Shown piece by piece: positions 9,555 to 54,973 of a stretch of 64,000 bases of DNA. Each line of letters opens with the position of its first letter. The stretch's first letter is position 1. Source of the stretch: Ornithodoros turicata. Its lineage: Eukaryota; Arthropoda; Arachnida; Ixodida; Argasidae. The translations under genes were made by a program, and so were the position numbers. The stretch covers positions 89,216 through 153,215 of the forward strand of contig NW_026999484.1 in assembly GCF_037126465.1 (NCBI RefSeq), in the 5' to 3' direction. The notes beneath the pieces are model-generated. The model saw only the letters and a program-made list of their open reading frames with translations, was not told the DNA's origin and ran no database searches.

Positions 9555-11966
9555 ATCATTGCCACGAGGCCGAAGAAACTACATGCCACATCCTCCAATA
9601 CTGCGAAAGAGTCCACGGCCCCAGAGTCGAGCGCCCCAACTTTATTGCTACGCAATTTCAGAGACTTGTCTCCAAGTATTATCCACCATTCTCCATCATC
9701 CGAGTAACTTCCATCACATTGGACGATATACATGCCTACTATGACCCCTTGCTTTCGGGACCCTCAGCGGCATGCTCAACCAGACTATCGTCCGGGACCA
9801 AGACACCGGCCGAGTATGGGCCGCTGGAGATTGAAGAGATTGTCTCTGCGCTAAGAGCAATGGACAGAAAGTCAGCGCCCGGTCCAGATGGAGTCACCTT
9901 AGACAACCTAAACGCCGTGCCAGCGACAATCTTGCGTCACGTCTGCAATAACTTTTTCATCCACCAGCACATTCCAGATGAACTTAAGTGGTCAAAAACC
10001 GTGTTCATTCCTAAAAGGAATCGGCCTCAGACAGCTGCAGAGGTCCGCCCAATAACCATGTCGCCAATGCTCTTCAGGCTTTATTCCCGAATACTCCTAA
10101 GAAGGCTCTCAGTTTATAACTTCCACGCTCTTCAAGGCGGATTTCAGGACGATAGGGCGACGAGTAACAACCTGTTGACCCGCCAGGCCCTAATGAAAAT
10201 CTTTAAGAAAAGGAAGAAGAGTCTGCATGGGGTGAGTTTGGATGTCCGTAAAGCCTTCGACTGCGTTTCCCACGAGGCCATTGGAGCGGCCATAAGGGGC
10301 AGGGACATTCCAGAATCCTACGGAGACATTATACAAGATCTTTATAAGAAATGTGTCGCTATGTACTTCTGGAACGGAGAGACGGACGAGAGGGAGGTGC
10401 CTGTAAATCGAGGCATTAAGCAAGGAGACCCCCTCTCGCCGTTTCTCTTTAACTTGGTCTTGGATCCCCTGCTCCAAGTGGCCAAAACGTCGGGCCTCGG
10501 GGTCGAAATTGACCAACAACATGCAGCAGCGATGGCATTTGCGGACGACATCCTACTCATATCTTCCAGCCTGGAGGGCCTTAAATCCTTGATAAGGATG
10601 AATGAAAGCTATCTCAACAACGTCGGCCTCGTCCTGAATCCCGCCAAATCACAATACTTCGGGTGGCGTTACAACGGCGTGTCGAAATGGTTCGACTATA
10701 GTATTCCACCTTTGGACATTGGCGGCAGAACAATTCAGCCACGGGGGAGAGACACGCCGATCTCCTATCTCGGCCTCAAACTCTGTCAATCGGCCAAGTA
10801 GAATTGACGACAACACGGCAGAGAGGATGATCGCTATTATTACATCAGCTGCATTAAAACCTTTCCAGAAACTTAAATGCATAAAGCACCTGGTAGTCCC
10901 AAGATTTCTTTATCAAGCTGCTAACATTCTTGGGTTACTCTCCCATGCTACTAGGAAAGACAAAGCAGTTAGAAACACAGTCAAGTCCATTCTCCATCTA
11001 CCACACTCATTTCCTAGCATCCACCTTCATCTTGCAAACCGAGAGGGCGGACTCGGCGTGGCATGCATTGAATGGACGGCTGCATCAGTTCAATACAAGG
11101 CCATGGCGCGAATGACACGGTTCGGCGACCCCTTCATCGACGCAATCTTGTCTAGTGGCCTCCGGGAAAACCTCCAGCGCCTGGCTGTTCATCTGGGCAT
11201 CCCTGTCGGAATAACCGACAGGAGTGAGGTCAACGAAGCGATCTTTTGCTTAAAAAAAGGAATTTTGGAAGAGGAGGCAAGCGGCCTACAGTAACAAAGC
11301 CTTTTTTCCCATACTAAGGAACCCGCGGGCAACACCTGGCTCGCATGCGACTCTAAGTTGCTAAAAGACGGAGATCGTATAGAAGCGCTCCGGCTGCGCA
11401 CAAATTTGTATCCAACTCGGGCGCTATCGAATAAACACGCACGTGACCCGAAGATGCGCAGCTGCAGATATTGTGGTCTTGCGGAAGAATCTACCTTTCA
11501 CATATTACAGCAATGTGAAAAGGTTCACCTCCCTCGTGTGGCTAGGCACAACTTTATAGCCAAGCAAATAACAAGACTCCTACGTCAGCACGACCCAGAT
11601 GCGACTGTAGAAGAAGAAAAGTTACTAACATCGACCTCGGGTATCAGGCTTAAGCCTGATCTGATTTACACTAAAGGAGATGAGGTGGTCGTGCTGGACA
11701 TAGCGATTGCTTGGGATGCCAGCCCAGCCACACTATCCGATATGAATAGGGCCAAGGTTGCGAAGTACTCTTGCCTAGCTGCATCTTACCCTGATAAACG
11801 TTTTTCTATACATGGCCTTGCTTTTGGTGCAAGAGGGGGTACGTGCGCTGGTACACGCAGGGCCCTCCGCGACCTTGGCCTCACGAGCGGAGACATATCC
11901 TGGCTGGCTGTGAAAGTTTTAGTGGGTAGTCTGATTTGTCTCTCCCGCTTCAACCGTATGATCTGA
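9555..11966 (+). pseudogene. Element A: RT and restriction-like endonuclease
   Basis: After the foreign 42-residue head, RT begins near SITLDDIHAYYDPL and runs APGPDGVTLDNL, SLDVRKAFDCVS, GIKQGDPLSPFLFN and AMAFADDILLISSSLEG (catalytic Asp pair near 10540). A frameshift near 10790 moves to YQAANILGLLSHA and PHSFPSIHLHLANREGGLGV. Another near 11285 moves to the C-terminal domain: GDRIEALRLRTNLYPTRAL, CRYCGLAEESTFHILQQC (CCHC knuckle), VHLPR, and LKPDLIYTKGDEVVVLDIAI (PD...D endonuclease core). It ends FNRMI at 11966. The N-terminal fingers and Myb are absent through 5' truncation. Confidence 0.85.
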
Positions 11967-12207
11967 AGATGTTGAGATTTTATGGAGCACGGATGGTTTT
12001 AGTTCAGCGACCAGTACCATCTTTGTGGTAGTTTTAAATATCCTTGGGCCTTTTCCACTTTCATTTGTTTTTATAAAAGTGGTTGCCTTGTACCCTCTGG
12101 TCGGAAGGCTGACCTTGACTTCGGTTGAGGCCTGGGTCCAAGGCCATCCACTTTTGGTTGCCTTCCCCTATATTTTTAACCCCTTTCGCGGCGGAAACTT
12201 CGTGTTT
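9555..12207 (+). mobile_element. R2-type element A (chimeric 5' end)
   Basis: Inserted between CTTTC (9554) and TAGCCAAAT (12208). The first about 127 bp belong to the Cys-His region of the other lineage (match to 24251-24365 of element D). The sequence then switches to the region just upstream of RT in the VHLPR lineage, so the 5' end is a template-jump product. The 3' UTR holds AAAAGTGG at 12075-12082 paired with CCACTTTT at 12148-12155, and GCCTTG (12085-12090) with CAAGGC (12139-12144). It ends GTGTTTTAG. Confidence 0.9.
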
Positions 12208-13047
12208 TAGCCAAATCAACGCCATTTTACTCATTCGACGTTTTTCTCCTACATTATAAGATCGTGCACTGAGGCACAAACTCACAAAGTATGGGGTAAC
12301 GGCAGGGGAAAATACTGTGTTCTTTCGGTAGCCAAATAAACGCCATTCTACTCATTCGACACTTTTCTCCCACATTAGGATGGTGCGTCTGAGGCACAAA
12401 CTCACAAAGTATGGGGTAACGGCAGGGGAAAATACTGTGTTCTTTCGGTAGCCAAATAAACGCCATTCTAGTCATTCGACGCTTTTCTCCCACATTATAG
12501 GATCGTGCACTCAGGAACAAACTCACAAAGTATGGGGTAACGGCAGGGGAAAATACCGTGTCCTTTCGGTAGCCAGATAAACGCCCATTCTCGTCATTCG
12601 ACACTTTTCTCCCACATTAGGATGGTGCGTCTGAGGCACAAACTCACAAAGTATGGGGTAACGACAGGGGAAAATACTGTGTTCTTTCGGTAGCCAAATA
12701 AACGCCATTCGACGCATTCGACGCTTTCTCCCACATTAGGATCGTGCATCTGAGGCACAAACTTACTAAGTATGTGGTAACAACAGGAGGAACTACAGTG
12801 TTCTTTCGGTAGCCAAATAAACGCCATTCCACGCATTCGACGCTTTCTCCCACATTAGGATCATGCATCAGAGGCAAAAAACTCGCAAAGTATGGGGTAA
12901 CAACAGGGGGAACTACAGTGTTCTTCGGTAGCCAAATCAACGCTATTTTACTCGTTCGACGCTTTTCTCCCACATTGTAAGATCGTGCACTGAGGCACAA
13001 ACTCACAAAGTGTGGGGTAACGGCAGGGGAAAATACTGTGTTCTTTC
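12208..13047. repeat. sat-1 array 2 (7 units)
   Basis: 840 bp, exactly seven 120 bp periods from TAGCC (12208) to CTTTC (13047). Units fall into variants, for example those with GGTAACGGCAGGGG and those with GGTAACAACAGGNGG. Unoccupied units read TCTTTCGGTAGCCAAAT. Confidence 0.95.
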
Positions 13048-16000
13048 GGGATCGGGATCGGGCTTCCCGCCGGTTCTCCCGGTGGGGCCTCGGGTGTGCC
13101 CGCGGTGGCGGCTGACCCGCTTGATTTGCCCTGCAATATCACCACCCAAGAAGAGGCCGACGGCCTATCGACTGCTATCAGTTCACCTTGTTCAACGACC
13201 TCTCCTGCAATCGATTTATCTGACGATATTTCGCAGTTGGCCGGTCTGATCGCTAGTGAACAGACTACTCATCCCAGTTCTGCCCTTTACGGGGCTTTAG
13301 GAGATATACCCGCCTGGGAACCTCCTGGCTATGCGAACACGATTATGCAGGTTAGAGAACTGAGCACCCCAGAGGACCGCTTGTCGGTCGACAACAATTA
13401 CAGCGGTATTAGTGGTGTGGACGGGCGATCGGGCGGAGAGGCGGTGGCTGCGGGTTCGGCCGGGGCCCCGGTGGCCGGGGCGTGTTGGGGCCCGCCCTTG
13501 GTAGCGTCGGGGGTGAATGCTTCTCTGACCATGAACGCCGAGACTATCATGAACGATTTTCAAGAACTCGGCTTTATCGACCCTTTGCTTATTAACAGGC
13601 TAATCTCGGATCCTGTTTCTGCTGAAGATCTCAAAGAAATCCTCAACAAGTTTGGAGTGATGATGGAGTCCCCGAGAGGGCGAAGGCCTCCTGCAAGAGT
13701 GACACCCAGAAGAGCCGAGCCTGCTAACAGATCTGAAAGAAAGCGCTTAAGGTTCAATGAGCACCAAAGATTGTATCGTCTTGGCCCTAAAGTGCTCTTA
13801 CATCAGTTGATGTCCTAAGTAGAAGATGGGGCCAGTTCCTTGTCGCTGAGGGATATCCATTCCTTTTTCGAACCTCTATTGTCTGGTTCAACTGTACGAC
13901 CCCAGGTGGTTATGTCATCTACAAGTAAGACCACGGTGGAAGTTTCGCTCTTCGAGCTGGAAGATGTGAGAGTGGCCCTTGCTGGCATGGACAGAAAGGC
14001 TTCCCCAGGCACTGACCGAGTTTCTGTGAACGACTTGATGGCGGTGGACTCTAGGATACTGTTGCATATCATGAACAACTTTTTCGTATACAGGGCCACA
14101 CCTGAGGAGCTAAAGAGCTCAAAGACAGTCTTTATTCCAAAGAAGACAGCTCCGAAATCGGCAAGTGATGTCCGACCGATCACCATGTCATCGATGCTAT
14201 GCCGTTTGTACTCGAGATTACTTCTCCGGCGTTTGTCAGCCGAGAATTCCTTCCACCCCCTTCAGGGAGGGTTTCAAGACGATCGAGGAACAAGTACCAA
14301 CTTGTTGACCCTCCAGGACATTATGAAAATCCTCAAAAAGAAGAAGAAGGGCTTATATGCGGTTAGCCTAGACGTTCGGAAGGCGTTCGACTGCGTGTCG
14401 CACCAGGCCATTGCAGCAGCGGCGCGTGGTAGAGGCATCCCCGAGCATTACATAGAAGTGCTCAAAGACCTTTACAGTGGATGCTCTACCACCTTTTACT
14501 GGAATGGAGGGACTGATGGGAGGAGGGTACCCGTTCGACAGGGTATTAAGCAAGGTGACCCCCCTCTCACCCTACCTATTCAATGCTGTTCTTGATCCGC
14601 TGCTGCAAACTCTTAATGGTTCTGGCTTGGGACTACAAATCGAAGGCAGACACGCAGCCGCAATGGCCTTCGCAGACGATGTAATGCTCTTTTCTTCAAG
14701 CCTGGAGGGATTGAAGGCTCTGATTGGGCAGACGGAGGAATATCTCGGCCAGGCTGGACTTGTACTTAACCCGGAGAAATCTCAGTACTTTGGTTGAAAA
14801 TATGATGGCAGAACCAAATGGTTCAGCTAGGACATCACCCCGATAGTTATTGGCGGCAGGTTGGTCCACCCGAAAGGGAAGGATAACCCGATAACGTACC
14901 TAGGTATCGATATATATGTCAACAGACCTTCTAGAGTCCGCGACTGCCTAACAGCAAAAAATGATCGACTTGATCTGCTCGGCTGCGCTAAAGCCTTTTC
15001 AAAAACTTAAGTGCCTGAGGCAGCTAATATTACCAAGATATCTATACCAAGCTGCCAATGTACTGGGGCTACTCTCGCAGGCTACCAAGTTTGACAAGGC
15101 TATTCGCAATAAGGTTAAAAAGATAATGCACCTACCGCACTCGTTCCCCAGTGCCCACGTTCACCTCCCGGCCAGCGAGGGAGGACTCGGCATTCTACAT
15201 CTAGAATGGGTTGCTGCGGCGGTCCAGTTTAAGGCCCTAACCCGGATGGTGAGGCTGGCAGATCCTTTTGTGGACGCCGTCCTGACTTCTGGGCTGCATG
15301 AGAACATTACCCGATTGTCGACACATCTTGGCATCCCTGAGGGGATCACGGCCGTAATGAAGTTAATAACGCCTTGAAGAGTCTGCAGAGGGTGTACTGG
15401 GATAGGAGAATCGCAAGTTATAACAATAAGAGCCTGTTTGCCCATAGGAAGGAGCCCTTGGCCAACTCATGGTTGGCCTGCGATTCTCGCATTATGAAGG
15501 ACGGAGACCGTATTCGGGCTCTCCGTCTACGTACAAACTTATATCCCACTCGCACCCTCTCAAACAGACACACCCGTGACCCCGCGGCCAAGAATTGTCG
15601 GCATTGCGGCCAGAGGTCCGAGACGACGTTCCACATTCTCCAGGAATGCGAGAAGGTTCACCTGCCCCGGGTTGAGCGGCACAATTTTATTTCTAAACAG
15701 ATCGCTCGTTTGACTCGCCAATACAACCCTGAGGCCACTGTGATCGAGGAAAAGCTGATAACCTCAACAACTGGCGTCCGTTTGAAACCAGATTTAATTT
15801 TTACGAAAGGCGATGAGATCCAGTTATTGGACGTGGCGATCGCCTGGGACGCCAGTTCCTCGACACTGACTGATATCAACAAGGCCAAAGAGGCTAAATA
15901 TGTTTGCCTTGCCGAGTCCTTCCCTGGTAAGAGAGTTGCAGTACATGGTCTCTGTTTCGGTGCCAGGGGGGGGGGGGGGACGTGTGCTGGGACACGAAGG

Positions 16001-16105
16001 GCCTTGAAAGAGCTTGGCCTTACGAATAACGATGTTTCGTGGCTGGCGGCCAAGGTGTTGGTCGGCAGTCTTATCTGTCTGACCAGGTTTGGTAACATGG
16101 TGTAG
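13048..16105 (+). pseudogene. Element B: linker, RT and endonuclease
   Basis: Opens in the linker (GGASGVPAVAADPLD, then DISQLAGLIASEQ). GSAGAPVAGACWGPPLV, which in relatives leads into the Myb box SYGRWT, is joined instead to ETIMNDFQELGFIDPLL, so the whole Myb domain is missing. Next is RFNEHQRLYRLGPKVLLHQL, a TAA stop at 13816-13818, and RT in the same frame with SPGTDRVSVNDL and SLDVRKAFDCVS. An extra C in the run at about 14561 shifts the frame before AMAFADDVMLFSSSLEG. TGG has become TGA at 14795-14797, and another stop lies at 14828. The C-terminal domain is intact from 15374 (CRHCGQRSETTFHILQEC, VHLPR, LKPDLIFTKGDEIQLLDVAI) to a stop at 16105. Confidence 0.85.
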
Positions 16106-16357
16106 GAGTTCCATTGGTTTCGTTTCCATTGGTTCGTTTTTATAAGCACGGGATGCCTTTTTATGACGACTTCTCACCATCTTGTGTGATAGTTCTCCTC
16201 TTTTAGTCTCAGCTACTTTTATCGCTTTTATAAAAGTGGCTGCTTTGGGGCCTGTTATCCTGTTGGCTGGCTGCGGGGAGTGGTCCTCTGCGGTCAGGCC
16301 CCAAAGACACCCACTTTTGTTGTCGTTTTCTTACCTCGTTCGAGGAAATAGTCGTTT
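13048..16357 (+). mobile_element. R2-type element B (5' truncated, no Myb)
   Basis: Inserted between CTTTC (13047) and TAGCC (16358). The first 15 bases are a doubled GGGATCG pattern that may be untemplated addition. Truncated inside the linker after the fingers. The 3' UTR carries AAAAGTGG (16232-16239) with CCACTTTT (16311-16318), and CTTTGGGGCC with GGCCCCAAAG (16298-16307). Confidence 0.9.
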
Positions 16358-16834
16358 TAGCCAAATAAACGCCATTCAACGCATTCGACGCTTTCTCCCA
16401 CATTAGGATCGTGCATCTGAGGCACAAACTCACAAAGTATGGGGTAACGGCAGGGGAAAATACTGTGTTCTTTCGGTAGCCAAATAAACGCCATTCTACG
16501 CATTTGACGCTTTCTCCCACATTAGGATCGTGCATCTGAGGCACGAACTCACTAAGTATGGGGTAACAACAGGAGGAACTACACTGTTCTTTCGGTAGCC
16601 AAATAAACGCCATTCTACGCATTCGACGCTTTCTCCCACATTAGGATCATGCATCTGAGGCAAAAAACTCGCAAAGTATGGGGTAACAACAGGGGGAACT
16701 ACAGTGCTCTTTCGGTAGCCAAATCAACGCCATTTTCCTCGTTCGACGCTTTTCTCCCACATTATAAGATCGTGCACTGAGGCACAAACTCACAAAGTAT
16801 GGGGTAATGGCATGGGAAAATACTGTGTTCTTTC
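16358..16834. repeat. sat-1 array 3 (4 units)
   Basis: Four units between elements B and C, with mixed GGTAACGGC and GGTAACAAC variants and one unit of the REGCAAAAAACTCGC type (GAGGCAAAAAACTCGC). Confidence 0.95.
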
Positions 16835-17628
16835 TGCCAATCCATGCGTAAGTTATGTGAGGAGCTTGGCCTCTCGAGGTCCGACGTGGCATGGTTGGCG
16901 GCCAGGGCCCTGGTTGGTAGTTTGATCTGCCTGAGTCGGTTTGTAAGGAAGGTGTAGCTGGGTCGTCCATCGGTTTCTCCCTGTGGTTTTGCTAGATCTA
17001 GGTGGTTTTGCTAGATCTTTGTCGCTTGGTGTATGAGTACACCTTAACACCTGGGCGGTTAGCATTTTGAGCGTCCGCAGGGCAGCTCAATTGCTCCAAG
17101 AACATCTTACTTAGTAAATACCCCTTTAACCATTCTGTGGTTTTGCTAGATCTAGATGGGTTTGCTAGATCATTTCGCTTGGTGTACGAGTACACCTTAA
17201 CATCTGGGCAGTTAGCATTTTGAGCGTCCGTAGGGCAAGCTCAATTGCTCCATGAACTTCTTACATAGCAATTACCTTTCAACCAAACATCTTTGTGTAG
17301 CAAATACTCCTTTAGCATTATCAGACACTGTCCTACTGTCTTTCCCTGTTGGATTTGCCATAGGGTAGTGGTGTGGAGTTCCCGGTGGTTTTGCTCGATT
17401 GATCGGGACTCCTTGCTTGAGTTGTGTTGTTATTTTAACTTGAGGCGTACTGCGCTCCGCTCTTTTAGCCTATTGTTGGGCAAGTTTCTTATCAGTCTTC
17501 TTATTGTGGTGTTTTATCGGTCTTAACCCCAAGTTTGGGTCTAAGGCCAACTAGCTCACTGCGCTCCGCGCGGTGAGGCTGCAGATCCCCAACTTGGTTT
17601 CAACCCGCTCTCGGGTACAAGTTAGTTT
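16835..17628 (+). mobile_element. R2-type element C (3' end only, same family as D)
   Basis: Inserted after CTTTC (16834) and ending before TAGCC (17629). Only the last 40 codons and the 3' UTR remain. The UTR contains repeated GGTTTTGCTAGATC boxes and a GTGTANGAGTACACC inverted motif, then a tail near-identical to that of D (CTGCGCTCCGCGCGGTGAGG, ending GGGTACAAGTTAGTTTTAG). Confidence 0.9.
16838..16957 (+). pseudogene. Element C: last 40 codons of the endonuclease ORF
   Basis: Reads QSMRKLCEELGLSRSDVAWL then AARALVGSLICLSRFVRKV and a TAG stop. It is near-identical to the end of element D (24613-24743). Catalytic residues lie upstream and are lost through 5' truncation at insertion. Confidence 0.9.
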
Positions 17629-18127
17629 TAGCCAAATAAACGCCATTCTACGCATTTGACGCTTTCTCCCACATTAGGATCGTGCATCTGAGGCACAAAC
17701 TCACTAAGTACGGGGTAACAACAGGAGGAACTACAGTGTTCTTTCGGTAGCCAAATAAACGCCATTCTACGCATTCGACGCTTTCTCCCACATTAGGATC
17801 ATGCATCTGAGGCAAAAAACTCGCAAAGTATAGGGTAACAACAGGGGGAACTACTGTGTTCTTTCGGTAGCCAAATAAACGCCATTCTACTCGTTCGACG
17901 TCTTTCTCCCACATTAGGATCGTGCATCTGAGGCACAAACTCGCAAAGTATGGGGTAACGACAGGGGAAATTACTGTGTTCTTTCGGTAGCCAAATAAAC
18001 GCCATGCTACGCATTTGACGCTTTCTCCCACATTAGGATCGTGCATCTGAGGCACAAACTCACAACGTATGGGGTAACAACAGGGGGAACTACAGTGTTC
18101 TTTCGGTAGCCAAATAAACACCATTCC

Positions 18128-18216
18128 ACCTCGGTTGAAGCCTGGGCCCAAGGCTATCCACTTTTGGTTGCTTTCCACTATTCTTTTTACCCCACTTTTG
18201 GGGACACTCTGTGTTT
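18128..18216 (+). mobile_element. R2-type 3' tail embedded in the satellite (copy 1)
   Basis: CCTCGGTTGAAGCCTGGGCC to GTGTTTT; resembles the 3' end of element A (12120-12207), with the terminal ACCCC...GGGGAC hairpin. The left joint falls inside the satellite unit, not at the R2 site. Confidence 0.8.
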
Positions 18217-18477
18217 TAGTCAAATAAACGCCATTCTACTCATTCGACGCTTCTCTTCCACATTAGGATCGTGCATCTGAGGCACAAACTCGCAAAGTAT
18301 GGGGTAACGGCAGGGGAAAATACTGTGTTCTTTCGGTAGCCAAATAAACGCCATTCTACGCATTCGACGCTTTCTCCCACATTAGGATCGTCCATCTGAG
18401 GCACAAACTCACAAAGTATGGGGTAACAACAGGGGGAACTACAGTGTTCTTTCGGTAGCCAAATAAACGCCATTCGA

Positions 18478-18566
18478 CCTCGGTTGAAGCCTGGGCCCAA
18501 GGCTATCCAGTTTTGGTTGCTTTCCCCTATTCTTTTTACCCCGTTTTTTGGGGACACTCTGCGTTT
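18478..18566 (+). mobile_element. R2-type 3' tail embedded in the satellite (copy 2)
   Basis: Second copy of the 18128-18216 tail, with the same left joint after CCATTCGA and the same TAGTCAAATAAAC on the right. Confidence 0.8.
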
Positions 18567-18687
18567 TAGTCAAATAAACGCCATTCTACTCATTCGACGC
18601 TTTTCTTCCACATTAGGATCGTGCATCTGAGGAACAAACTCGCAAAGTATGGGGTAACGGCAGGGGAAAATACTGTGTTATTTCACC

Positions 18688-18830
18688 CCCGGCGTGGCAC
18701 ATCTTTTTCGCTGCTTCTTTTCCGTGTTCTGCGAAGTGTTCTTGACGGTGTGCCACAAGTGCTCCCCCACCTCCTCGTGGTGCCGGGTGGTAACGGCTCT
18801 GCTCCTTGCATAGCCGGCCAAGTGGGGAGC
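18688..18830 (+). ncRNA. HDV-like self-cleaving ribozyme, element D
   Basis: Read by eye as the HDV double pseudoknot. P1 is CCCGGCG (18688-18694) with TGCCGGG (18781-18787); a J1/2 hairpin pairs GTGGCAC with GTGCCAC; P2 is GCTCCCC with GGGGAGC (18824-18830); P3 is ACC-TCCTCGT-GGT; GGTAAC follows P1; P4 is GGCT...AGCC; J4/2 is GGCCAAG with the expected catalytic C. P1 differs completely from the other copies yet still pairs. Cleavage would fall at 18687/18688, three bases inside the insertion. Confidence 0.75.
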
Positions 18831-18953
18831 GCAGGCCTTTTGGCCTGGTGCAGGTGAAACCTGTGTTCTTTCTTCTTTTGGGTCTCCCTGTTCATAGCAC
18901 AGGGGGCCTAGACCTGCACCGTTGAGCGCGAGCGTTTTGTCTTTTATTTGAGG

Positions 18954-21549: not shown

Positions 21550-21553
21550 AGCT

Positions 21554-40310: not shown

Positions 40311-40314
40311 CGTT

Positions 40315-40460: not shown

Positions 40461-40576
40461 ACACGCCATAAGGCGTGTAAAAGCGAAAAGAGTTTATTTT
40501 GTGTTTTAGGCACCCTGCTCACTCCAGCAGGATTGCCAACGTTTTTACTTCCCCTCGCACGATTCCCCACTGAATT

Positions 40577-44537: not shown

Positions 44538-46454
44538 TAGCCAAATAAACGCCATTTTACTCATTCGACGCTTTTTTCCCACATTACGATCGTGCATCTG
44601 AGGCACAAACTCACAAAGTATGCGGTAACGGCAGGGGAAAATACTGTGTTCTTTCGGTAGCCAAACAAACGCCATTCTACGCATTCGACGCTTTTCTCCC
44701 ACATTACCATCGTGCATCTGAGGCACAAACTCACAAAGTATGGTGTAACGGCAGGGGAAAATACTGTGTTCTTTCGGTAGCCAAATAAACGCCATTCTAC
44801 TCATTCAACGCTTTGCTCCCACATTAGGATCGTGCATCTGAGGCACAAACTCACAAAGTATGGGGTAACGGCAGGGGAAAATACTGTGTTCTTTCGGTAG
44901 CCAAATAAACGCCATTCGACGCATTCGACGCTTTTCTCCCACATTAGGATCGTGCATCTGAGGCACAAACTCACAAAGTATGTGGTAACGGCAGGGGAAA
45001 ATACTGTGTTCTTTCGGTAGCCAAATAAACGCCATTCTACGCATTCGACGCTTTTCTCCCACATTAGGATCGTGCATCTGAGGCACAAACTCACAAAGTA
45101 TGGGGTAACGGCAGGGGAAAATACTGTGTTCTTTCGGTAGCCAAATAAACGCCATTCTACTCATTCGACGCTTTTCTTCCACATTAGGATCGTGCATCTG
45201 AGGCACAAACTCACAAAGTATGGGGTAACGGCAGGGGAAAATACTGTGCCCTTTCGGTAGCCAAATAAACGCCATTCTACTCATTCGACGCTTTTCTCCC
45301 ACATTAGGATAGTGCGTCTGAGGCACACACTCACAAAGTAAGGGGTAACGCCAGGGGAAAATACTGTGTTCTTTCGGTAGCCAAATAAACGCCATTCTAC
45401 TCATTCGACGCTTTTCTCCCACATTTGGATACTGCGTCTGGGGCACAAACTCACAAAGTATGGGGTAACGGCAAGGGAAAATACTGTGTTCTTTCGGTAG
45501 CCAAATAAACGCCATTCTACGCATTCGGCGTTTTTCTCCCACATTAGGATAGTGCGTCTGAGGCACAAACTCACAAAGTATGGGGTAACGGCAGGTGCAA
45601 ATACTGTGTTCTTTCGGTAGCCAAATAAACGCCATTCTACTCATTCGACGCTTTTCTCCCACATTAGGATACTGCGTCTGGGGCACAATTTCACAAAGTA
45701 TGGGGTAACAGCAAGGGAAAATACTGTGTTCTTTCGGTAGCCAAATAAACGCCATTCTACTCATTCGACGCTTTTGTCCCACATTAGGATCGTGCATCTC
45801 AGGCACAAACTCACAAAGATGGGCTAACGGCAGGGGAAAATACTGTGTTCTTTCGGTAGCCAAATAAACGCCATTCTACTCATTCGACGCTTTTCTCCCA
45901 CATTAGGATAGTGCGTCTGAGGCACACACTCACAAAGTAAGGGGTAACGCCAGGGGAAAATACTGTGTTCTTTCGGTAGCCAAATAAACGCCATTCTACT
46001 CATTCGACGCTTTTCTCCCACATTAGGATACTGCGTCTGGGGCACAAACTCACAAAATATGGGGTAACGGCAAGGGAAAATACTGTGTTCTTTCGGTAGC
46101 CAAATAAACGCCATTCTACTCATTCGACGCTTTTCTCCCACATTAGGATCGTGCATCTGAGGCACAAACTCACAAAGTATGGGGTAACGGCAGGGGAAAA
46201 TACTGTGTTCTTTCGGTAGCCAAATAAACGCCATTCTACTCATTCGACGCTTTTCTCCCACATTAGGATACTGCGTCTGGGGCACAAACTCACAAAGTAT
46301 GGGGTAACGGCAAGGGAAAATACTGTGTTCTTTCGGTAGCCAAATAAACGCCATTCTACTCATTCGACGCTTTTCTCCCACATTCGGATAGTGCGTCTGA
46401 GGCACAAACTCACAAAGTATGGGGTAACAGCAGGGGGAAATACTGTGTTCTTTC
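44538..46454. repeat. sat-1 array 12 (16 units, youngest)
   Basis: Sixteen units start at TAGCC 44538 and every 120 bp (one is 119), highly similar. Two families alternate: GGATCGTGCATCTGAGGC and GGATACTGCGTCTGGGGC or GGATAGTGCGTCTGAGGC. Units at 45258-45857 and 45857-46454 follow the same order of variants, including the rare GGCACACACTC...GTAAGGGG unit at about 45301 and 45900, giving a five-unit (600 bp) higher-order repeat. All fifteen internal R2 sites here are unoccupied. Confidence 0.95.
45010..45026 (+). other. Example of an empty R2-type target site
   Basis: TCTTTCGGTAGCCAAAT. The 28S R2 site is TCTTAAGGTAGCCAAAT, so 15 of 17 bases agree, with GGTAGCCAAAT identical. Insertions here replace GG and leave TAGCCAAAT at the 3' side, the same phasing as R2 in rDNA. 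Confidence 0.85.
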
Positions 46455-46459
46455 AAAGT

Positions 46460-46614
46460 GGGGGGTGTGGTTCAGCTTCGTTTCTGGTCTTGCTGTGCGA
46501 TATTTTGAGTGCCCAGATTCGTGACGCTGCTTTTCGAGCTGAACCACGGGCGGTCCGGCCTCCTCGTGGCGCCCCCCGGGCAACGGCTTACAGCAGCCGG
46601 CAAACGGACCGCCC
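46460..46614 (+). ncRNA. HDV-like self-cleaving ribozyme, element J
   Basis: P1 is GGGGGGTG (46460-46467) with CGCCCCCC. The J1/2 hairpin pairs GTGGTTCAGC with GCTGAACCAC (variant at one position). P2 is GGGCGGTCCG with CGGACCGCCC (46605-46614). P3 is GCC-TCCTCGT-GGC, then GGGCAAC; P4 is CGG-CTTACAGCAG-CCG; J4/2 is GGCAAAC. Cleavage would release the RNA 5' end at 46460. Confidence 0.85.
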
Positions 46615-46692
46615 ACGGCATAAGCCGTGGTCAGAGTGCAAATTGTGTTTCTTGTTGTGTTCTTAGGGAGCCCAGCTAAGCGCTGAGCTTCC
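46613..46692 (+). promoter_or_regulatory. Two conserved 5' UTR hairpins, element J
   Basis: Hairpin 1 directly after the ribozyme: CCACGGC (46613-46619) with GCCGTGG (46624-46630). Hairpin 2: GGGAGC (46666-46671) with GCTTCC (46687-46692), 35 bases before the start codon. Equivalent hairpins with different bases occur in D, G, H, I and K, so the pairing rather than the sequence is conserved. A role in translation of the uncapped cleaved RNA is an inference. Confidence 0.6.
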
Positions 46693-46726
46693 AACGCTCT
46701 TACCTGTTCGCCAGGATATCACCAAG

Positions 46727-49700
46727 ATGGATGACTTTGAAGTCACTTATCCGCCCGAAGGGCTTACCTGTCACCTATGTGAAGAAAGATCAACATCACG
46801 AGCCAAATTTGAGGCCCATTACCTGAGACATAATAAGAGGGTCGTATGGAGGTGTGGGGTATGCATGCTTAAGACTCTGTACGCATGTACTAGCATGTCT
46901 TCCCACCATACCAAGTGTAAGAAGAAGATGGCTGCTCAAAGAATCATACCCTCGGTGACATCTCAATCAAGACCTTCAGGTGTACATGACGGCCCTTCAG
47001 GATCGATTGCGGTGACTGCTTCAATCATACCTTCTGTCGGGGATGGCCAGGAAATCGACCAGGCTACTTGTCATGGTGCGGAAGATGAAGTAGTGGAAGA
47101 TGAAGTTGTGGAAGATGGACTTCCAGAAGTTGAGAACTCAGAGGCCGTTGCGGGATCTTTGGCTGGAGGGGATGCGCCTGCGGGGGGCGGCGGGGGTCCG
47201 GGTGTGCCCGGCCTCGTCGCTGACCTACAGCGTACGGAGGAGGCAGTCATGGGGAGCCCTGGCCCTCTGGGTCAGAACGATACAGACAGCTCTTTTGAGA
47301 TTTCAGCCTTGGCTGGTCTGCTCGCCGAGGAGAACTTAACTCCTCCTGCCGGAATGGTTAGGCGAGCGTACTCTGAACCTGTTATGACGCAGGACGAACT
47401 AGCAGAGAATGCTCCCCAAGAAGCATATGTCTACGACTTGCCCTCCACTGATAATAGACAGGAATTGTCTAGGGGCCTCGGTGATCTTCAGGCCCATAAC
47501 CAAGAACCGCAGGATGGATTGGGGATGGGGTCGGGTTCGCCCGGTGTCCCGCCGCCTCGCGGGAGCGTACCTCCTCCGGCTTTGGTCTCGTACGGCAGAT
47601 GGACGGAAGCGGAACTCCACTTACTAGCCCGCCTGGAACTTTCGATGGGAGACCACCCTTTCATCAACATGAAGTTATATGAAGCCTATCCAACGAGGTC
47701 ACTACAAAGCATAAGAATGACGCGCCATTCGAAGAGGTATAGGCAGATCCTACGAAATCTTCGTGAGACTACAAGAGTGCCTCCACATTCTACTCATGGG
47801 CCTGATGTCTTGCCTGAGAATAACGTCATCCGGAGCATGCAAGAGGAGATCCAGCGTGCGATTGAAGACACCCAGTTGCCGGACGAACTGAAAAGACGCT
47901 TGAAGAATGGCCCTATTTTGCAGAAGGACATCGAGGCTGTCTTCCAAGTTTTCAATGTTCAACCCAGACATTCAACACCGAGAAAGTCCAACAGACCAAG
48001 GCCAAGACCTCCAACAAATGCGAGGGAGAGAAGGCGGCAGCGATATAGAGATCATCAGAGACTATACAATAGGGGCCCGCGGGTTCTTTGCCATGAGCTG
48101 ATGATGGCAAAAAATGATACGACGGTGGACCTTACGGCCCTCCATGAGGAATTTGACCTGGTGATGTCCTCCCCCTCGCCGGCTGCTGTCAAGGTGCCTC
48201 CCTTGCCTGGACGTTTGAACGTGGAGATGCGATACATAACTGAGGAAGAAGTCCTTCAATGCTTGGGATCTGCGAATGCGAATTCTGCACCTGGGCCTGA
48301 TGGCGTCACCTTGAACATGATGAAGCGAATCCCAGTGGATGTCCTCTGCACCATTTTTAATAATTTCCTGGCCTTCAAAACGGTGCCGCCTGAACTCAAA
48401 AGATCAAAAACGGTGTTCGTACCGAAGAAGGCAAACCCTACCAAAGCATCGGAATTTCGACCAATTACAATTTCGTCCATGCTACTGAGATTGTATAGCA
48501 AGATCCTGTTGGCCAGGTTTTCAGCGAGGGGAGGTTTCCACGACCTGCAGCAAGGGTTTCAGGCTGATAAAGGCACAGGGACTAATCTCCTTCTGCTTCA
48601 AGGGCTGATGCGTTATGCGAAGAGGAAGCGAAGGCCACTCTATGTGGCTAGTTTAGACTTGCGGAAGGCTTTTGACCTCGTTAGCCATTATGCCATCTTT
48701 GGTGCACTTCGGGGTCGATCGCTACCAGAGGACTACACCGCCATCATAGAAGATCTTTACTCTGGATGCACGACCTCCTTCTACCTCCAGGGGTCATCTG
48801 ATCGCACAGAAATTCCAGTGAGGAGGGGCATTAAGCAAGGTGACCCCTTGTCGCCCTACCTGTTCAATAGCGTCATGGACCCCCTCCTTCATGAGCTAAA
48901 TGACTCAGGACTCGGATTTCACATAGACTCTACAACAGCAGCGGGGATGGCTTTTGCCGACGACCTCCTTCTATTCTCGGATAACCATGAAGCTCTTCAA
49001 GAACTAATTAAAATGACCGAGCGATATCTTCAACAAGTCCAGCTTCAATTGAATCCTTCCAAAACGCAGTTTTTCGGATGGAAGTGGTCCTCAGAACGAG
49101 GGTGGTTTAACTATGACATAGCCCCCATTCTGGTGTGTGGGAGCGCCGTTTTTCCGGCTACAAGAGAGCAACCCCTTACTTATCTGGGGCTCAAGATCTA
49201 CGTCCATAGTGGGCCTTCAATGATTGATGAAAAAGCAGAAGAAGTCACGAAGGTGTTGACGGGTGCTTCCTTAAAGCCATTTCAGCGTCTGCGATGTTAC
49301 AAGGAATTAGTTGTGCAGAGAAGATTATATACGCTGGCTAATTCCCTGGGTGTTATTAGTCACGCGGAGAAAGCTGACAAGGTTCATCTGAGACAAGCCA
49401 AGAAAATACTTCACCTCCCAGGCTCCTTCCCTTCGTCTCACATCTGGATGCCTAGTGGAAGGGGGGGCCTGGGGGTCTTGCAGCTGGCCTTTGTAGCTAC
49501 ACAAGTCCAGATCAAGTCTCTGGCACGACTTCAGCGCCTCGCCAACCCTTTCGTGGACTGCATATTCAACGAGATCCTGAGCTCCCACATGGGTGCCCTG
49601 TGTCACTACGTCGACATTCCGGTTGGGATGTCAGACCCTCACGATTTGTCAAGAATATTGCACGAGGCCCACACTCGTTGGACAGCGAAGATTGTTAGTG

Positions 49701-50380
49701 GGTACAAGCAGAAGTCCTCATTCGCCCACATGAATGATCAACTTGCGAACAAGTGGCTACATACAGATGCGAGACATCTAAAAGATGGAGATCGCATTAG
49801 AGCGTTGCGACTGCGAACAGGAATCTATCCCTGTAAAGCTCTTTACAACAAACACGCAGCGGATCCCAGAGAGCGGCTCTGTCATCACTGCCACGAATCG
49901 GAAGAGACCCCCGTACACATTTTACAGTTTTGTGAGCGAGTTCACGGCCCCCGCGTAGAACGACATAATTTTATTTGCGACCAAGTCGTACGACTGACGG
50001 AGAAGTACAACCCGAATGCTAAAGTTCTGCAGGAGCAGGTATTTTCGGTTCAGGGCCTTCGGTTAAAGCCAGACATTGTCATCCACGATAAAAATGAGGT
50101 AACGATAGTTGATGTCGCCATTACCTGGGACAGTGCGGTTTCGACCCTTGAGAAGAAGGTTCAAGAAAAGAATTCAAAGTATGAGCCGCTGCGACAGTGC
50201 TTCCCGGACAAAACAGTTTCGGTCGCTGGTCTGGTTATTGGTGCGCGGGGACTAACGTGTTCTTCAACTAGGAAACTGTGTCAGGCTCTTGGATTTACGA
50301 AGGCCGACGTGGCTTGGTTGGCCTCAAAAGCCCTCCTGGGGAGCCTTATTTGTTTAAGCCGTTTCGTGCGTATGGTTTAG
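46727..50380 (+). CDS. R2-type retrotransposon polyprotein, intact (element J)
   Basis: 1217 codons, ATG at 46727 (MDDFEVTYPPEGL). Domains: CCHH finger C15-C18-H31-H35; CCHC finger C43-C46-H60-C64; a disordered linker to about 285, with acidic repeats (EDEVVEDEVVED), GPGVPG and FEISALAGLLAEE; Myb-like domain about 289-345 (SYGRWTEAELHLLARLEL); basic RT-0 region ending DHQRLYNRGPRVLCHEL; RT with APGPDGVTLNMMKR, D644 in SLDLRKAFD, GIKQGDPLSPYLFN, and F743-A-D745-D746; thumb with PFQRLRCYKEL; CCHC knuckle C1052-C1055-H1064-C1069; VHGPRVERHNF; endonuclease P1115-D1116 and D1129. There is no finger beside Myb. Family role: nick the target, prime reverse transcription of its own RNA, and insert the copy. 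No lesion seen. Confidence 0.93.
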   Translation: MDDFEVTYPPEGLTCHLCEERSTSRAKFEAHYLRHNKRVVWRCGVCMLKTLYACTSMSSHHTKCKKKMAAQRIIPSVTSQSRPSGVHDGPSGSIAVTASIIPSVGDGQEIDQATCHGAEDEVVEDEVVEDGLPEVENSEAVAGSLAGGDAPAGGGGGPGVPGLVADLQRTEEAVMGSPGPLGQNDTDSSFEISALAGLLAEENLTPPAGMVRRAYSEPVMTQDELAENAPQEAYVYDLPSTDNRQELSRGLGDLQAHNQEPQDGLGMGSGSPGVPPPRGSVPPPALVSYGRWTEAELHLLARLELSMGDHPFINMKLYEAYPTRSLQSIRMTRHSKRYRQILRNLRETTRVPPHSTHGPDVLPENNVIRSMQEEIQRAIEDTQLPDELKRRLKNGPILQKDIEAVFQVFNVQPRHSTPRKSNRPRPRPPTNARERRRQRYRDHQRLYNRGPRVLCHELMMAKNDTTVDLTALHEEFDLVMSSPSPAAVKVPPLPGRLNVEMRYITEEEVLQCLGSANANSAPGPDGVTLNMMKRIPVDVLCTIFNNFLAFKTVPPELKRSKTVFVPKKANPTKASEFRPITISSMLLRLYSKILLARFSARGGFHDLQQGFQADKGTGTNLLLLQGLMRYAKRKRRPLYVASLDLRKAFDLVSHYAIFGALRGRSLPEDYTAIIEDLYSGCTTSFYLQGSSDRTEIPVRRGIKQGDPLSPYLFNSVMDPLLHELNDSGLGFHIDSTTAAGMAFADDLLLFSDNHEALQELIKMTERYLQQVQLQLNPSKTQFFGWKWSSERGWFNYDIAPILVCGSAVFPATREQPLTYLGLKIYVHSGPSMIDEKAEEVTKVLTGASLKPFQRLRCYKELVVQRRLYTLANSLGVISHAEKADKVHLRQAKKILHLPGSFPSSHIWMPSGRGGLGVLQLAFVATQVQIKSLARLQRLANPFVDCIFNEILSSHMGALCHYVDIPVGMSDPHDLSRILHEAHTRWTAKIVSGYKQKSSFAHMNDQLANKWLHTDARHLKDGDRIRALRLRTGIYPCKALYNKHAADPRERLCHHCHESEETPVHILQFCERVHGPRVERHNFICDQVVRLTEKYNPNAKVLQEQVFSVQGLRLKPDIVIHDKNEVTIVDVAITWDSAVSTLEKKVQEKNSKYEPLRQCFPDKTVSVAGLVIGARGLTCSSTRKLCQALGFTKADVAWLASKALLGSLICLSRFVRMV

Positions 50381-50608
50381 TGTTCCCATTCCCTATTGTT
50401 GACATCTTGGTGCCTGGCGGCTTTTATAATTATTTTATCTGGATTAGCCTGGGTTTAACTATTTCTACTTTATTTTACGACTCCTGGACCTTAAGAACTG
50501 GATCTGGGTGCCACCAACCGTGCGTTGCCCTATGGGCATCGCATGGCACGCAATCCTGGGCTTTGTCCACCTTTTACCCCCTTTTTTTCCGGGGGACACT
50601 TAAGTTTT
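50381..50608 (+). promoter_or_regulatory. Element J 3' UTR
   Basis: 228 bp. A GTGCGTTGCCC / GGGCATCGCATGGCACGCA-type inner stem (GTGCGTTGCC... with ...GGCACGCA) and GGATCTGGG...ATCCTGGGC flank it. It ends with CCCCC-loop-GGGGG then ACACTTAAGTTTT. By analogy with R2 it is the structure the RT would bind to start copying. Confidence 0.6.
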
Positions 50609-50721
50609 TAGCCAAATAAACGCCATTCTACTCATTCGACGCTTTTCTCCGACATCGGGATAGTGCGTCTGAGGCACGAACTCACAAAGTATGGGGTAAC
50701 GGCAGGGGGAAATACTGTATA
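50609..50721. repeat. sat-1 single unit between J and K
   Basis: One unit, truncated at its end (AATACTGT then ATA instead of GTTCTTTC), so element K lost about 7 bp of upstream target. Confidence 0.9.
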
Positions 50722-50864
50722 GGGGTGTGTGTGTTGCTTCGTTTGCTACCCGCCAGGCGCCATTTGTCTAGCCCAGCGATTTGTCAGAAGCAGCACACTG
50801 CGGTCCGAGCCTCCACGTGGCGCCCCCTGGGCAACGGCCGTAGCAGCCGGCTAATCGGACCGCA
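50722..50864 (+). ncRNA. HDV-like self-cleaving ribozyme, element K
   Basis: P1 is GGGGTG (50722-50727) with CGCCCC; J1/2 has GTGTGTTGCTTC with GAAGCAGCACAC; P2 is TGCGGTCCGA with TCGGACCGCA (50855-50864); P3 is GCC-TCCACGT-GGC; then GGGCAAC; P4 is CGG-CCGTAGCAG-CCG; J4/2 is GGCTAAT. Confidence 0.85.
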
Positions 50865-50982
50865 CACACCATAGGTGTGTAAAAGCGAAAAAGAAGAGTG
50901 TTAGTGTTCTTTTAGGTGCCCTGCTCACCCCACAGGGTGGCCCACGTTTTTACTTATACCCTGCACGATACCCCACTGCATT

Positions 50983-53900
50983 ATGGAAAGGTGGGAGGTG
51001 GAGTACCCACCAGCGGAGCTGATTTGCCACGTCTGCCAGGCACGACTGACATCACGTTTGAAGTTTGAGCTTTATTATAAGGAGCATCGAATCCAAGTTG
51101 CTTGGAGATGGACTACCTGGGGAGACAAGATCCTGACTGCTTGTAGCAGTATGTCCTCACATCACTCCAAATGCAATCAGCGCAGAAAGAAGCGTTCTTC
51201 AGGTGCTGATGCTAATAACCTCCCCACCACACAACACGTGACAGGTGGTGGTGGGAGCGCCTCATCTACAAATGGTGATGAAGGGACGTCGCGCTCCGGT
51301 TCCACACGACAACCTACGAGGGACAGAGAAGCACTTGTTATTGACACAGATAATCACGATCTTCAAGCTGTGTGCGTGAACGATGAGGGTGCCTTGAACA
51401 CCTATACAGTGGAAACAAGTGATCCTTCGGAACTGAACACTCAAGGTGTCCTTTCTGAGAGTGCACCAGAGACTTCTGATAGTGTTGCACCGCGGCCTTT
51501 GATGAGTGTTGACTTGCCGATGGCGGCCGAGGATTGTGTGGATGTCGCCATGGGGGGCTGCCGGGGTGGGGTATCTGGTTCGGTCTCTGGTGTGCCCGGC
51601 CGGGAGGCTGAGACCACTGCAAGCGACGATCGTGGTGTTGTTTCAGCGGAGGGTGTGGTGACCTCACCATCAACTCTAGACATCTCTGATTTGGCTCAAA
51701 TGATAGTAGAAGCGGGAGCTTCGGCTCCCGACCCTCAGGACCTTGCCATGTATGGTGGGTCGATTGTTTTCGACGAGAGGGCTGAGCCACAGGTGCGGGT
51801 CGAGGGCGGCAACACTGCCACCCACTCAGTCTCTATACTAAATCACAACCCTGACACCACAGATGGGAGTAATCCCGTCTACCAGGTTGGTGGATCGGCG
51901 TCTCGGCCGGGCTCGGCGGGGATTGGGCCGGGTGGCTCATCCGGGGGGCCCCCTGTGGTGATATCCTACGCTTAATCTACTGGCTACTGCTGAGATTGGG
52001 CTTGGCCCACACCCATTCATCAATCAGGAATTGCACAAGTTATACCATGTACGTACTCTGATGAGTATAAGGATGACTCGGCACTCCCAGCGCTATCCAA
52101 ATATTCTGTGGGATCTGAAGGCTTCTCGGCGTTGACTATGGCACGTACCGAAGATTCTGATGCAAGACAGGCTCAGCAGGTTCAATCAGCTGGAAGACCG
52201 GACCTTGGTCGCCATGGAATTACAGATCACCTTATCACACGTCTGGAAGAAGGTTCGTTGCAACAACATGATTTTGGGACCATTCTATCCATATTTATCC
52301 AGAAGGCAACTGCACCGAAGCGACGAGGTCCTAAACGGTGCCCAATCGTCAATCCGGGTGTGAATGCGAAGCAAAGACGTCGTCAAAGGTTTCAACAGCA
52401 TCAGCATCTATACAAGAAAGGCCCAAGGATATTATGCCACGAGCTCTTGCAAGAAACAACAGAAGGAGTGGATCTGGAGGCTTTACATGGCGTTTATGAC
52501 CGTATTTTCTCAACAGTATCAAGTGAGGACGTCTCGGTGCCTCAAGTACCGGGTCAGCTCCTCGTCTCGACTGAACCTATTGTCCCTCAGGAGGTTACGG
52601 CTTCCTTGAATGGGTTGAACGCAAAAGCTGCACCAGGGCCTGATAACCTAAAAGTGGAGGATTTAAAAAAGATACCTCCAGAGGTCCTCGCTGCAGTGCT
52701 GAACAACTTTTACAAATGGAAATGTGTTCCCCCTTACTTAAAAAGATCTCGAACCACATTCGTCCCTAAAAAGGCGAATCCTGGGGGGGGGGGGGGGGCA
52801 TCTGATTTTCGGCCTATAACGGTTTCCTCCGTCCTAGTAAGACTATATACGAAAGTACTCCTCGAGCGAATGAGTGAGAAGAACAAGTTTCATGTGCTAC
52901 AAAACGGATTCGAAACAGATAAGAGCACAAGCAGTAACCTTCTGCTTTTGCAAGGCGTGATGCGTTATACCAAAAACCAGCACAAGCCTTTGTATGTGGC
53001 GAGTCTTGATCTGCGCAAGGCTTTCGATTCCCTTAGCCACTTTGCCATTTTTATGGCTTTACGAGGAAGGTCTCTGCCTGAGCACTACTGCAAAATCATA
53101 GAGGACTTATATCAGGGCTATACCACCCAGTTCTGTCTTCAAGGTACACTGGATGGTGAGGATGTTGCCGTACGGAGGGGGATCAAGCAGGGCGACCCTT
53201 TGTCGCCCTTCTTGTTCAACTGTGTGCTCGATCCCCTTCTGTATGCCCTTAACGACTCGGGCCTGGGTGTACACATTGATGGCGTCTCCGCAGCAGCAAT
53301 GGCGTTCGCTGATGATATTATCCTTATGTCAGAAAATCACAGCGCATTGCAGGAACTAATTCACCGCACCGAAAGCTACCTCACGGGACTGCAGCTCGAA
53401 ATAAATACCGCCAAAACCCAATACTTTGGGTGGAGGTGGGAGGAGTCCAGAGGCTGGTTTAACTATCAGGTCCAGCCCATTCGCGTGGGTGGTGAGGTCA
53501 TTCAGCCGCTCGATCGGGACACCCCACTCCAATATCTAGGGCTGTCTATTAGTATAGCCAAGGGCCCGATTATGTTAGGCCCCATGGCAAACAAGATTAA
53601 AGAAATAATTTCTCGAGCAGCTCTGAAGCCCTTCCAGCGGCTGCGTTGTATGAAGGAATTGCTGGTGCAGAGACGCCTGTATTCGCTGTCTAATTCGCTC
53701 AGTGTCATTACCCAGTCCGAGAAGGTTGACAAGGAGCATTTACGGCTGGCAAAAGAATACCTTCACCTTCCCAGTCCCTTTCCGTCTTCCCATGTATGGC
53801 TACCGATGGGCCAGGGAGGACTAGGTGTATTACAGCTATCCTGTACTGCTGTGGCCGTTCAGCTCAAGGCTGTCACCAGATTGATGAGGCTCGCCGCTCC

Positions 53901-54731
53901 GTTCGTAGACGCTATTCTGAACGCTGTCCTCCTCACACACGCAGATACCCTGACTGACCACCTCAAACTGCCAAGTGGTGTTACAGGTGCTGAGGATCTT
54001 AAGGCTCTATTGAGCGAGGCGCGTAGGGCGTGGGTGGAGCGTATGAAGAGCGTGTATAGGCGTAAGGGCCTTTTCACACACACAAAGGACCCCATGGACA
54101 ATAAATGGCTCCGTCCAGACTGCCGCCGCATGAAAGACGGGGACAAGATAAAGGCCCTGCGGCTACGTACGGGGATCTACCCATGCCGCGCGCTCTTCAC
54201 ATGCATTCCAAGGATCCGACTCAGCGCCTTTGCCACCACTGTGGTCAGGGTGAGGAAACGCCTGCACATATCCTGCAGTTTTGCGAAAAGGCCCATGGTC
54301 CAAGAGTAGAGCGGCACAACTTCCTGTGTAAACAAGTGTGTAGATTGGCCGCACAATGCAATCCCAATTTGACTATTGCACAGGAGAAAAATTTTACGGT
54401 TCAGGGATCCCGATTGAAACCTGACATAGTCCTCGATGATGGGAGTAATGTGACCGTAATTGATCTAGCTATGGCCTGGGATAGCACTGTTACTACTTTA
54501 GAGCATAGATGCAAAGAAAAAGTTGATAAGTATAGGATCCTCCAACAGTGCTTCCCAGGCAAGACGGTCCGCATCGAGGGTATGTCATTCGGGGCCAGGG
54601 GATTGACTTGTGCGACCCCTAGGCGGTTGTGCCGTTCGCTGGGCTTTACTGTATCGGATGTAGCATGGCTGGCCTCGCGAACATTAGTGGGAAGTCTCAT
54701 CTGTCTGGGACGTTTCATCCGACTTGTTTAA
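50983..54731 (+). pseudogene. Element K: fingers, Myb, RT, endonuclease
   Basis: ATG 50983: MERWEVEYPPAELICHVC. Finger 1 is C-x2-C...but LYYKEH replaces the first His seen in relatives (HYxxH), a possible loss. The second finger has lost its first Cys pair (WRWTTWGDK for WRCGVC) and keeps HHSKC. Linker has GSVSGVPGREAETT and DISDLAQMIVEA. A deletion at about 51968 removes GRWTxAE of Myb and breaks the frame. RT is open from 52108: APGPDNLKVEDLKKIP, SLDLRKAFDSLS, GIKQGDPLSPFLFN and AMAFADDIILMSENHS, with an in-frame 16 G run at 52783-52798. A frameshift near 54200 leads to CHHCGQGEETPAHILQFC, AHGPRVERHNF and LKPDIVLDDGSNVTVIDLAM. Stop at 54731. Confidence 0.85.
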
Positions 54732-54959
54732 CCCGCCTTAAGATCGTGGACCCCCTCTCTCCCACTCCTTGGCTCCCGTGCAGGGATTAACCTTTTGGGG
54801 TAGTTAGACCTCTTTTTGTGAGTTTACTTTTCTTTAAAGACGACCAGGGCTAAGGTAGGCTTCTGGGCGCCAACAACCGCACCTTGCTTACGCATGGTGT
54901 GGCGTCAAGAGTCTGGCTTCCCTTCTTTTACCCATTTTTTTATGGGACATTTACTGTTT

Positions 54960-54973
54960 TAGCGAAATCAAAA
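54960..54973. repeat. Right edge of sat-1
   Basis: TAGCGAAATCAAAA, a degenerate start of a unit (TAGCCAAATAAACG), after which the sequence is unrelated. Confidence 0.7.

Follow-up and report, generated by a model that had tools for sequence, protein, structure and literature searches.

We consider it very probable that a cluster of insertions in the genome of the soft tick Ornithodoros turicata consists of R2-type retrotransposons that entered a 120-bp satellite, likely derived from the 28S rRNA gene, at a single base of its unit and most likely by ordinary R2 target-primed reverse transcription (TPRT). The window, i.e., the whole stretch of 64,000 bp analysed, covers positions 89,216-153,215 of contig C202 and forms its end (C202 ends at 153,215); genome-wide searches were performed on the O. 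turicata assembly (1.07 Gb in 379 contigs). The satellite spans positions 9258 to 50718 of the window in 52 BLAST stretches, all on the plus strand and 49 of them starting at unit base 1. The array is broken by thirteen insertions (E1-E13), defined as the intervals between satellite blocks, and contains in addition a truncated insertion of 87/88 bp in three copies, multiplied along with the array. Satellite blocks and elements follow each other in this order:

9258..9554 (+): block of the probably 28S-derived 120-bp satellite, degenerate, left edge of the array
9555..12207 (+): E1, a stray 150-bp endonuclease fragment first, then a 5'-truncated R2-type element; coding parts are reverse transcriptase (RT) from 9707 and endonuclease up to 11963
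12208..13049 (+): satellite block, 7 units
13050..16357 (+): E2, R2-type element
16358..16834 (+): satellite block, 4 units
16835..17628 (+): E3, 5'-truncated element
17629..18684 (+): satellite block holding two truncated-insertion copies (18130-18216, 18479-18566)
18685..25727 (+): E4, R2-type element with a putative hepatitis delta virus (HDV)-like ribozyme at its 5' end (core 18770), interrupted at about 21562-23776
25728..26195 (+): satellite block with the third truncated-insertion copy (25870-25957)
26196..26586 (+): E5, 5'-truncated element
26587..26706 (+): single satellite unit
26707..27809 (+): E6, 5'-truncated element
27810..27930 (+): single satellite unit
27931..32037 (+): E7, near full-length, putative HDV-like ribozyme (core 28061), finger pair and Myb
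32038..32155 (+): single satellite unit
32156..36160 (+): E8, near full-length, putative HDV-like ribozyme (core 32266)
36161..36398 (+): satellite, two units
36399..37297 (+): E9, 899-bp insertion without an R2 frame
37298..37534 (+): satellite, two units
37535..40300 (+): E10, 5'-truncated R2-type element
40301..40310 (+): 10-bp satellite remnant TAGCCAAATA at the E10/E11 boundary
40311..44537 (+): E11, near full-length, putative HDV-like ribozyme (core 40407)
44538..46454 (+): satellite block, 16 units
46455..50608 (+): E12, full-length, putative HDV-like ribozyme (core 46559)
46667..50380 (+): open frame of E12, 1,237 aa from stop to stop
50609..50718 (+): single satellite unit, 10 bases short on its 3' side
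50719..54959 (+): E13, near full-length, putative HDV-like ribozyme (core 50810)
54960..54973 (+): satellite remnant TAGCGAAATCAAAA directly after E13

Sixteen 3' junctions were obtained in the window, all at one base, the TAG of TAGCCAAAT, and in one orientation; TAGTC was present in three and TAGCG in one of them. Fourteen are starts of full units preceded by an element and two are truncated units (40301, 54960); three of them stem from the one truncated-insertion event that was amplified. Unit start 12929, flagged in the junction scan, was merely a 1-bp loss within the satellite and no junction. Element 3' ends were GTTT in 13 and GTTTT in two cases, the exception being E9 with GTAGC (junction 37298). 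All first-strand junctions lie at the R2 base between GG and TAGCC. The 5' junctions, scored for 14 events, varied in base: seven ended in TTTC with loss of the GG (eight if the G run of E7 is assigned to the element), two had kept the GG, three had lost 1, 3 or 10 bases, and two presented a target duplication of about 10 bases (E11) or 23 bases (truncated copy; in the block 17629..18684 this insertion forms part of a 349-bp higher-order period). A rigid bottom-strand base together with a loose top-strand base is the R2 insertion pattern, R2 being described as having a fixed bottom-strand and a variable top-strand site (PMC2718515, PMC3774820). An earlier reading of the same DNA, hereafter the sequence-only reading, had placed thirteen R2-type insertions in the same orientation at the same base of the unit. 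This holds for the 3' junctions, but the 5' junctions vary; and although R2-type proteins are encoded, E9 lacks an R2 frame, E1 starts with a stray fragment and E4 is interrupted. E9 begins with a 28S-like piece bearing the general site GACTCTCTTAAGGTAG, and a related start was found at C13:2725568. The nine RT-bearing elements of the window share 64-69 % DNA identity within their long alignments, and only in E12 is the frame open throughout. The last 278 bp of E3 are 85 % identical to E4.

Genome-wide, the unoccupied junction had 986 matches (702 plus, 284 minus; up to 3 mismatches) and a 24-mer of the occupied junction 673 (462 plus, 211 minus; up to 2 mismatches), with none for either reversed control; both figures contain copies that arose by multiplication of the arrays, and the majority of matches are known by pattern only. 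The junction matches listed lie on C32 (4.49 Mb), apart from two on C64. In 30 fetched loci of C32 (L031-L060), an insertion preceded 16 of the 82 unit starts, in 15 cases with a GTTT or GTTTT end. These loci show occupancy and not scatter, because they were picked by satellite match. Scatter was assessed with patterns of family 3' ends, applied without satellite selection (G was left out at the last pattern base, which introduces a slight bias). For the E3/E4 family, the 3' end had 30 matches in the genome, E3 and E4 included, and 28 of them, on C32, C64 and C202, adjoin the satellite at the exact base. Of the remaining two, one is followed by TAG and another ribozyme motif, the other is unrelated and lies on C6, where the control also gives one match. 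The E6 family had seven matches, six in the satellite (E6 included) and one in the 28S piece L014, a copy known before the pattern was designed and 87 % identical to E6 over 1,103 bp. The end letters were CGAGTTT in the six satellite copies and CGTGTTT in the 28S copy. Scatter away from the satellite site, which the sequence-only reading had named as evidence against itself, was not apparent in either of the two families tested (28/30; 6/7). As to the rDNA-inserted relatives it had proposed to look for, one relative of E6 lies in the 28S piece L014. Its idea of one satellite base as the site for many element families is supported in the window and by these two families in the genome. The E6 lineage was likely mobile under purifying selection, because dN/dS (nonsynonymous to synonymous substitutions) between E6 and its 28S-inserted relative was 0.146 (251 codons, two aligned blocks).

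The whole 120-bp unit is collinear with the 28S segment at about -85 to +33 relative to the R2 site, the reference being a 28S composed of L015 (upstream) and L014 (downstream), both from this genome. The alignment score of 66 was attained by none of 5000 letter shuffles; when the 17-bp core was kept constant, 31 of 5000 shuffles attained it. With another 28S sequence as reference, the upstream side alone was equalled in 4 of 2000 shuffles. The satellite core TCTTTCGGTAGCCAAAT agrees with the general animal 28S site at 15 of 17 positions, as the sequence-only reading had stated, two bases differing, and at 17 of 17 with the 28S-like piece L029 of the same genome. Judged from these alignments, the satellite is likely a decayed, tandemly amplified 28S fragment around the R2 site, and an origin from 28S is most likely preferable to convergence. 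Thus the unit does more than mimic the R2 site, and to call the elements retargeted from 28S overstates the change in recognition, because the satellite is probably itself a 28S fragment; a relative of E6 is moreover present in L014. The core was conserved to 98.4 % in 46 window units, versus a mean of 95.1 % (rank 5 of 120 windows), which is weak evidence in support.

An exact search of the assembly for the general 28S site had no match and intact 28S genes were not found, so that the functional gene sequence had to be inferred. The downstream 28S side had six matches in the genome, with the R2 site unbroken in L029 only. The general form TTAAGG, carried by E9 and C13:2725568, counts against TTTCGG in the functional gene. 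For hard ticks two changed bases at the R2 site have been reported (PMC3160391, citing Bunikis and Barbour 2005), and an A-to-T change at this site in ticks among others (PMC3581529, citing Bunikis and Barbour 2005). A 20-mer of upstream 28S had 197 matches versus one for its reversed control, and all but five of the matches listed continue with TC (read by eye). On the basis of their sequence, the copies with TTTC look like 5' junctions of one abundant family. Matches of this 20-mer lie on C13, C25, C63, C101, C129, C138, C142 and C213; among those listed, the 20-mer is mostly followed by TTTC, often then by a short variable tract and TAACCTCTCAC.

A second satellite with a 107-bp unit (TAGCTAAATGCC...CTGCTTTAGG) had 2,495 matches (1206 plus, 1289 minus; up to 2 mismatches, reversed control 0) and is present on C63 and C101, e.g., C63:377097-407023. 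It aligns with 28S across the R2 site with a score of 54, attained by 1 of 3000 shuffles. Elements likely use the same base here, since among the matches listed other sequence ends directly before TAGCTAAATGCC in about 14 places. In L015 an E10-related element (67-71 % identity) has its end GTGTTT directly before TAGCTAAATGCC. Some blocks of this satellite have a 320-bp spacing and TTTCGG in place of TTTAGG. In L026 the end CAGTTTT of a further element abuts 28S, behind which the same 28S piece recurs in inverted orientation, and the otherwise unrelated L009, L010 and L013 each contain a 33-37-bp 28S piece (ATGGATTAACGAGATTCCCACTGTC and neighbours).

The open reading frame (ORF) of E12 contains a CCHH-CCHC finger pair, a Myb motif, RT, a CCHC motif and, by fold alignment, a restriction-like endonuclease, with RT and endonuclease of R2 type in one ORF. 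Its predicted fold best matches R2Tg and R2Bm, the R2Tg alignment extending to model residue 1200. The R2-type architecture of the sequence-only reading is thus borne out for E12 by motif and predicted fold. A Myb motif follows the finger(s) in E4, E7, E8, E11, E12, P0006, P0007 and P0009, with helices at this place in the E12 model; the E13 piece, P0010 and P0011 gave no such motif. Pfam Myb had no match in P0001, P0007 and P0009, while the bird R2 P0041 has one. A Myb after N-terminal finger(s) is reported to set the R2 superclade apart from Utopia (PMC13188248). ZnF1 next to Myb, a mark of the R2 subclades A-D, was by motif absent between finger pair and Myb in all six proteins in which both were located (E12, E7, P0006, P0007, P0009, P0016), whereas the three controls P0017, P0093 and P0120 were positive about 38 residues before Myb; the corresponding stretch of E12 is predicted to be disordered. 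As for the co-folded ZnF3:2 pair that marks R2 lineage A, the finger-pair model had its best match in R2Tg (probability 0.99, TMq 0.63), but with an E of 0.14, and none at E ≤ 0.001; pairs of this kind are predicted in some Utopia too (PMC13188248). The relatives P0010, P0011 and P0012 have two or three tandem CCHH-CCHC finger pairs, and the Trichinella R2 protein record P0017 appears to contain translated 28S (VNGGSNYDS) upstream of the fingers.

A protein search with N-terminal words, from a poorly conserved region, returned four distant RTs only. With the RT region 770 matches were obtained, of which 120 were listed and 50 used in a tree that left out NeSL, R4, Hero and Utopia. The tick sequences formed a clade of 26 rows (support 99/98) beside R2-A and R2-D, in a branching order compatible with a position inside R2 as well as next to it. 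The RT of E2 was very close to O. turicata LOC135372324 (branches 0.014 and 0.043; E2 fills 47 % of columns). RT and modelled fold appear nearest to R2 among what was compared. The elements were filed as R2 superclade and not as canonical R2, because the window copies sit in a satellite and not in a 28S gene.

Six elements (E4, E7, E8, E11, E12, E13) present at the 5' end a candidate HDV-like ribozyme with the core CCUCCNCGUGG and the helices P1, P2 and P3, on which the call is based, P1.1 and P4 being left out. Pairing is retained in all six (P2 9-10 bp, P1 5-8, P3 3) with letters that differ between elements, e.g., in P1 GGGGGGU/GCCCCCC versus CCCGGC/GCCGGG. An Rfam scan at gathering threshold found no ribozyme; that of E13 scored 26.2 bits (E 0.0019), below gathering. 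The predicted cut lies at most about five bases from the recorded element start, a position that would fit the variable 5' junctions described for ribozyme-bearing R2s (PMC3774820). At the other end, a potential hairpin ACCC-loop-GGG precedes GTTT in 12 of 12 aligned 3' ends, among them that of the 28S-inserted copy; the alignment was made without E1, E9, E10 and two amplified copies, and the 3' ends of E1 and E10 had no clean stem. The following course can be envisaged. The arrays would retain the 28S stretch that the R2 protein reads. Bound to the 3' untranslated region of its own RNA, which ends in a potential hairpin, the protein would nick the bottom strand at the GG/TAGCC boundary, and copying of the RNA from the nick would create the constant end, GTTT joined to TAGCC. 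The top strand would be cut two bases farther upstream or at differing positions, hence the variable 5' end. The RNA would be transcribed from the arrays as part of a longer transcript, from which the ribozyme at the element start may free its 5' end.

Some observations weigh against this reading. The downstream side of the unit alone, compared with the second 28S reference, was equalled in 1453 of 2000 shuffles and thus gives no independent 28S similarity, and an Rfam scan of the 16-unit block had no large-subunit rRNA (LSU) match at E ≤ 10, for which reason the 28S origin was tested through alignment and letter shuffles. The satellite might be unrelated to 28S and owe its likeness to the R2 site to chance or selection, the proteins having gained a new specificity; besides the downstream half, the lack of ZnF1 by motif, which leaves room for a different recognition, and the distinct E6-family ends in satellite and 28S speak for this. 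We nevertheless regard such a convergence as very improbable in view of the end-to-end collinear alignment, the TTTCGG core shared with L029 and the second satellite, which has another length and aligns with 28S at the same site.

Insertion into true 28S genes, followed by decay and unequal exchange that left R2 copies between short 28S remnants, would account for the family member in L014 and for the further 28S pieces with insertions (L015, L026); arrays do multiply inserted copies, as the 349-bp unit demonstrates. However, the nine RT-bearing elements each adjoin the same diverged 120-bp unit and not 28S, the same is true of 28 of the 30 ends of one family, on three contigs, and the 5' losses and duplications consist of satellite sequence. 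This history is very improbable. Beyond the preferred insertion into the satellite by TPRT, a more speculative extension can be formulated by analogy. In Drosophila, breaks by the R2 endonuclease are reported to drive rDNA copy expansion (PMC10266012), and R2 could in the same way have expanded the satellite arrays. Breaks at a displaced 28S fragment would expand it via unequal exchange into self-renewing, rDNA-independent satellite reservoirs, at least two in number (units of 120 and 107 bp), in which R2-type lineages with a new targeting module of finger pair plus Myb would have settled; we offer this tentatively and consider it rather doubtful.

The tick elements share with canonical R2 (R2Bm, R2Tg) the insertion base, the frequent 2-bp 5' loss, the predicted HDV-like 5' ribozyme and one ORF with fingers, Myb, RT and endonuclease, whose predicted fold matches R2Tg and R2Bm best. 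In contrast to these, they reside in short, probably 28S-derived satellites and not in 28S genes, and their proteins have the finger pair plus Myb without ZnF1 by motif. R8 and R9 insert at other sites of rRNA genes. Up to 2016, these and two R2NS families were the reported target changes of the R2 superclade (PMC5035012). All of these depart, like the tick elements, from the 28S R2 site; however, R8 and R9 recognise other targets and the R2NS families are no longer specific, whereas the tick elements keep the same base of 28S-like sequence in a changed location. A survey of 2026 reports non-site-specific sponge relatives, and its main text has no occurrence of 'satellite' or 'tick' (PMC13188248). 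The nearest precedent found in the available excerpts are R1A and R1B of Drosophila ananassae, inserted in a 22-bp 28S copy within the intergenic spacer (PMC2718515). There, too, an R element occupies a displaced copy of its 28S target, but these are eight R1 elements in an rDNA spacer, compared with hundreds of junctions of R2-type elements in satellite arrays. R2 elements in ticks, in which the 28S site likewise departs from the consensus, were reportedly described by Bunikis and Barbour in 2005. The accessible parts of PMC3581529, PMC5035012 and PMC3160391 mention no satellite for tick R2, and R2 in a 28S-derived satellite was not encountered in the literature, as judged on titles and abstract openings.

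The remainder of the window holds other repeats. Positions 56492-64000 are a different, AT-richer 125-bp satellite of about 60 copies that reaches the contig end; no R2 site was seen in it by eye. On the minus strand, 1-9250 contains pieces of other retroelements, including RT (2168-2989), DUF7041 (8415-8894) and a weak integrase SH3 match (7862-8401).

R2 is the textbook rDNA-specific element and is being made into gene-insertion tools. If our interpretation is true, R2-type elements have left the rDNA with their target base kept, a route to a harmless, expandable niche for site-specific elements. Natural variants of the target would allow tests of recognition by a protein without ZnF1, and short arrays away from ribosomal function would allow tests of whether R2 breaks contribute to array expansion, as has been proposed. 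The satellite would give R2-type elements a home outside the ribosomal genes.

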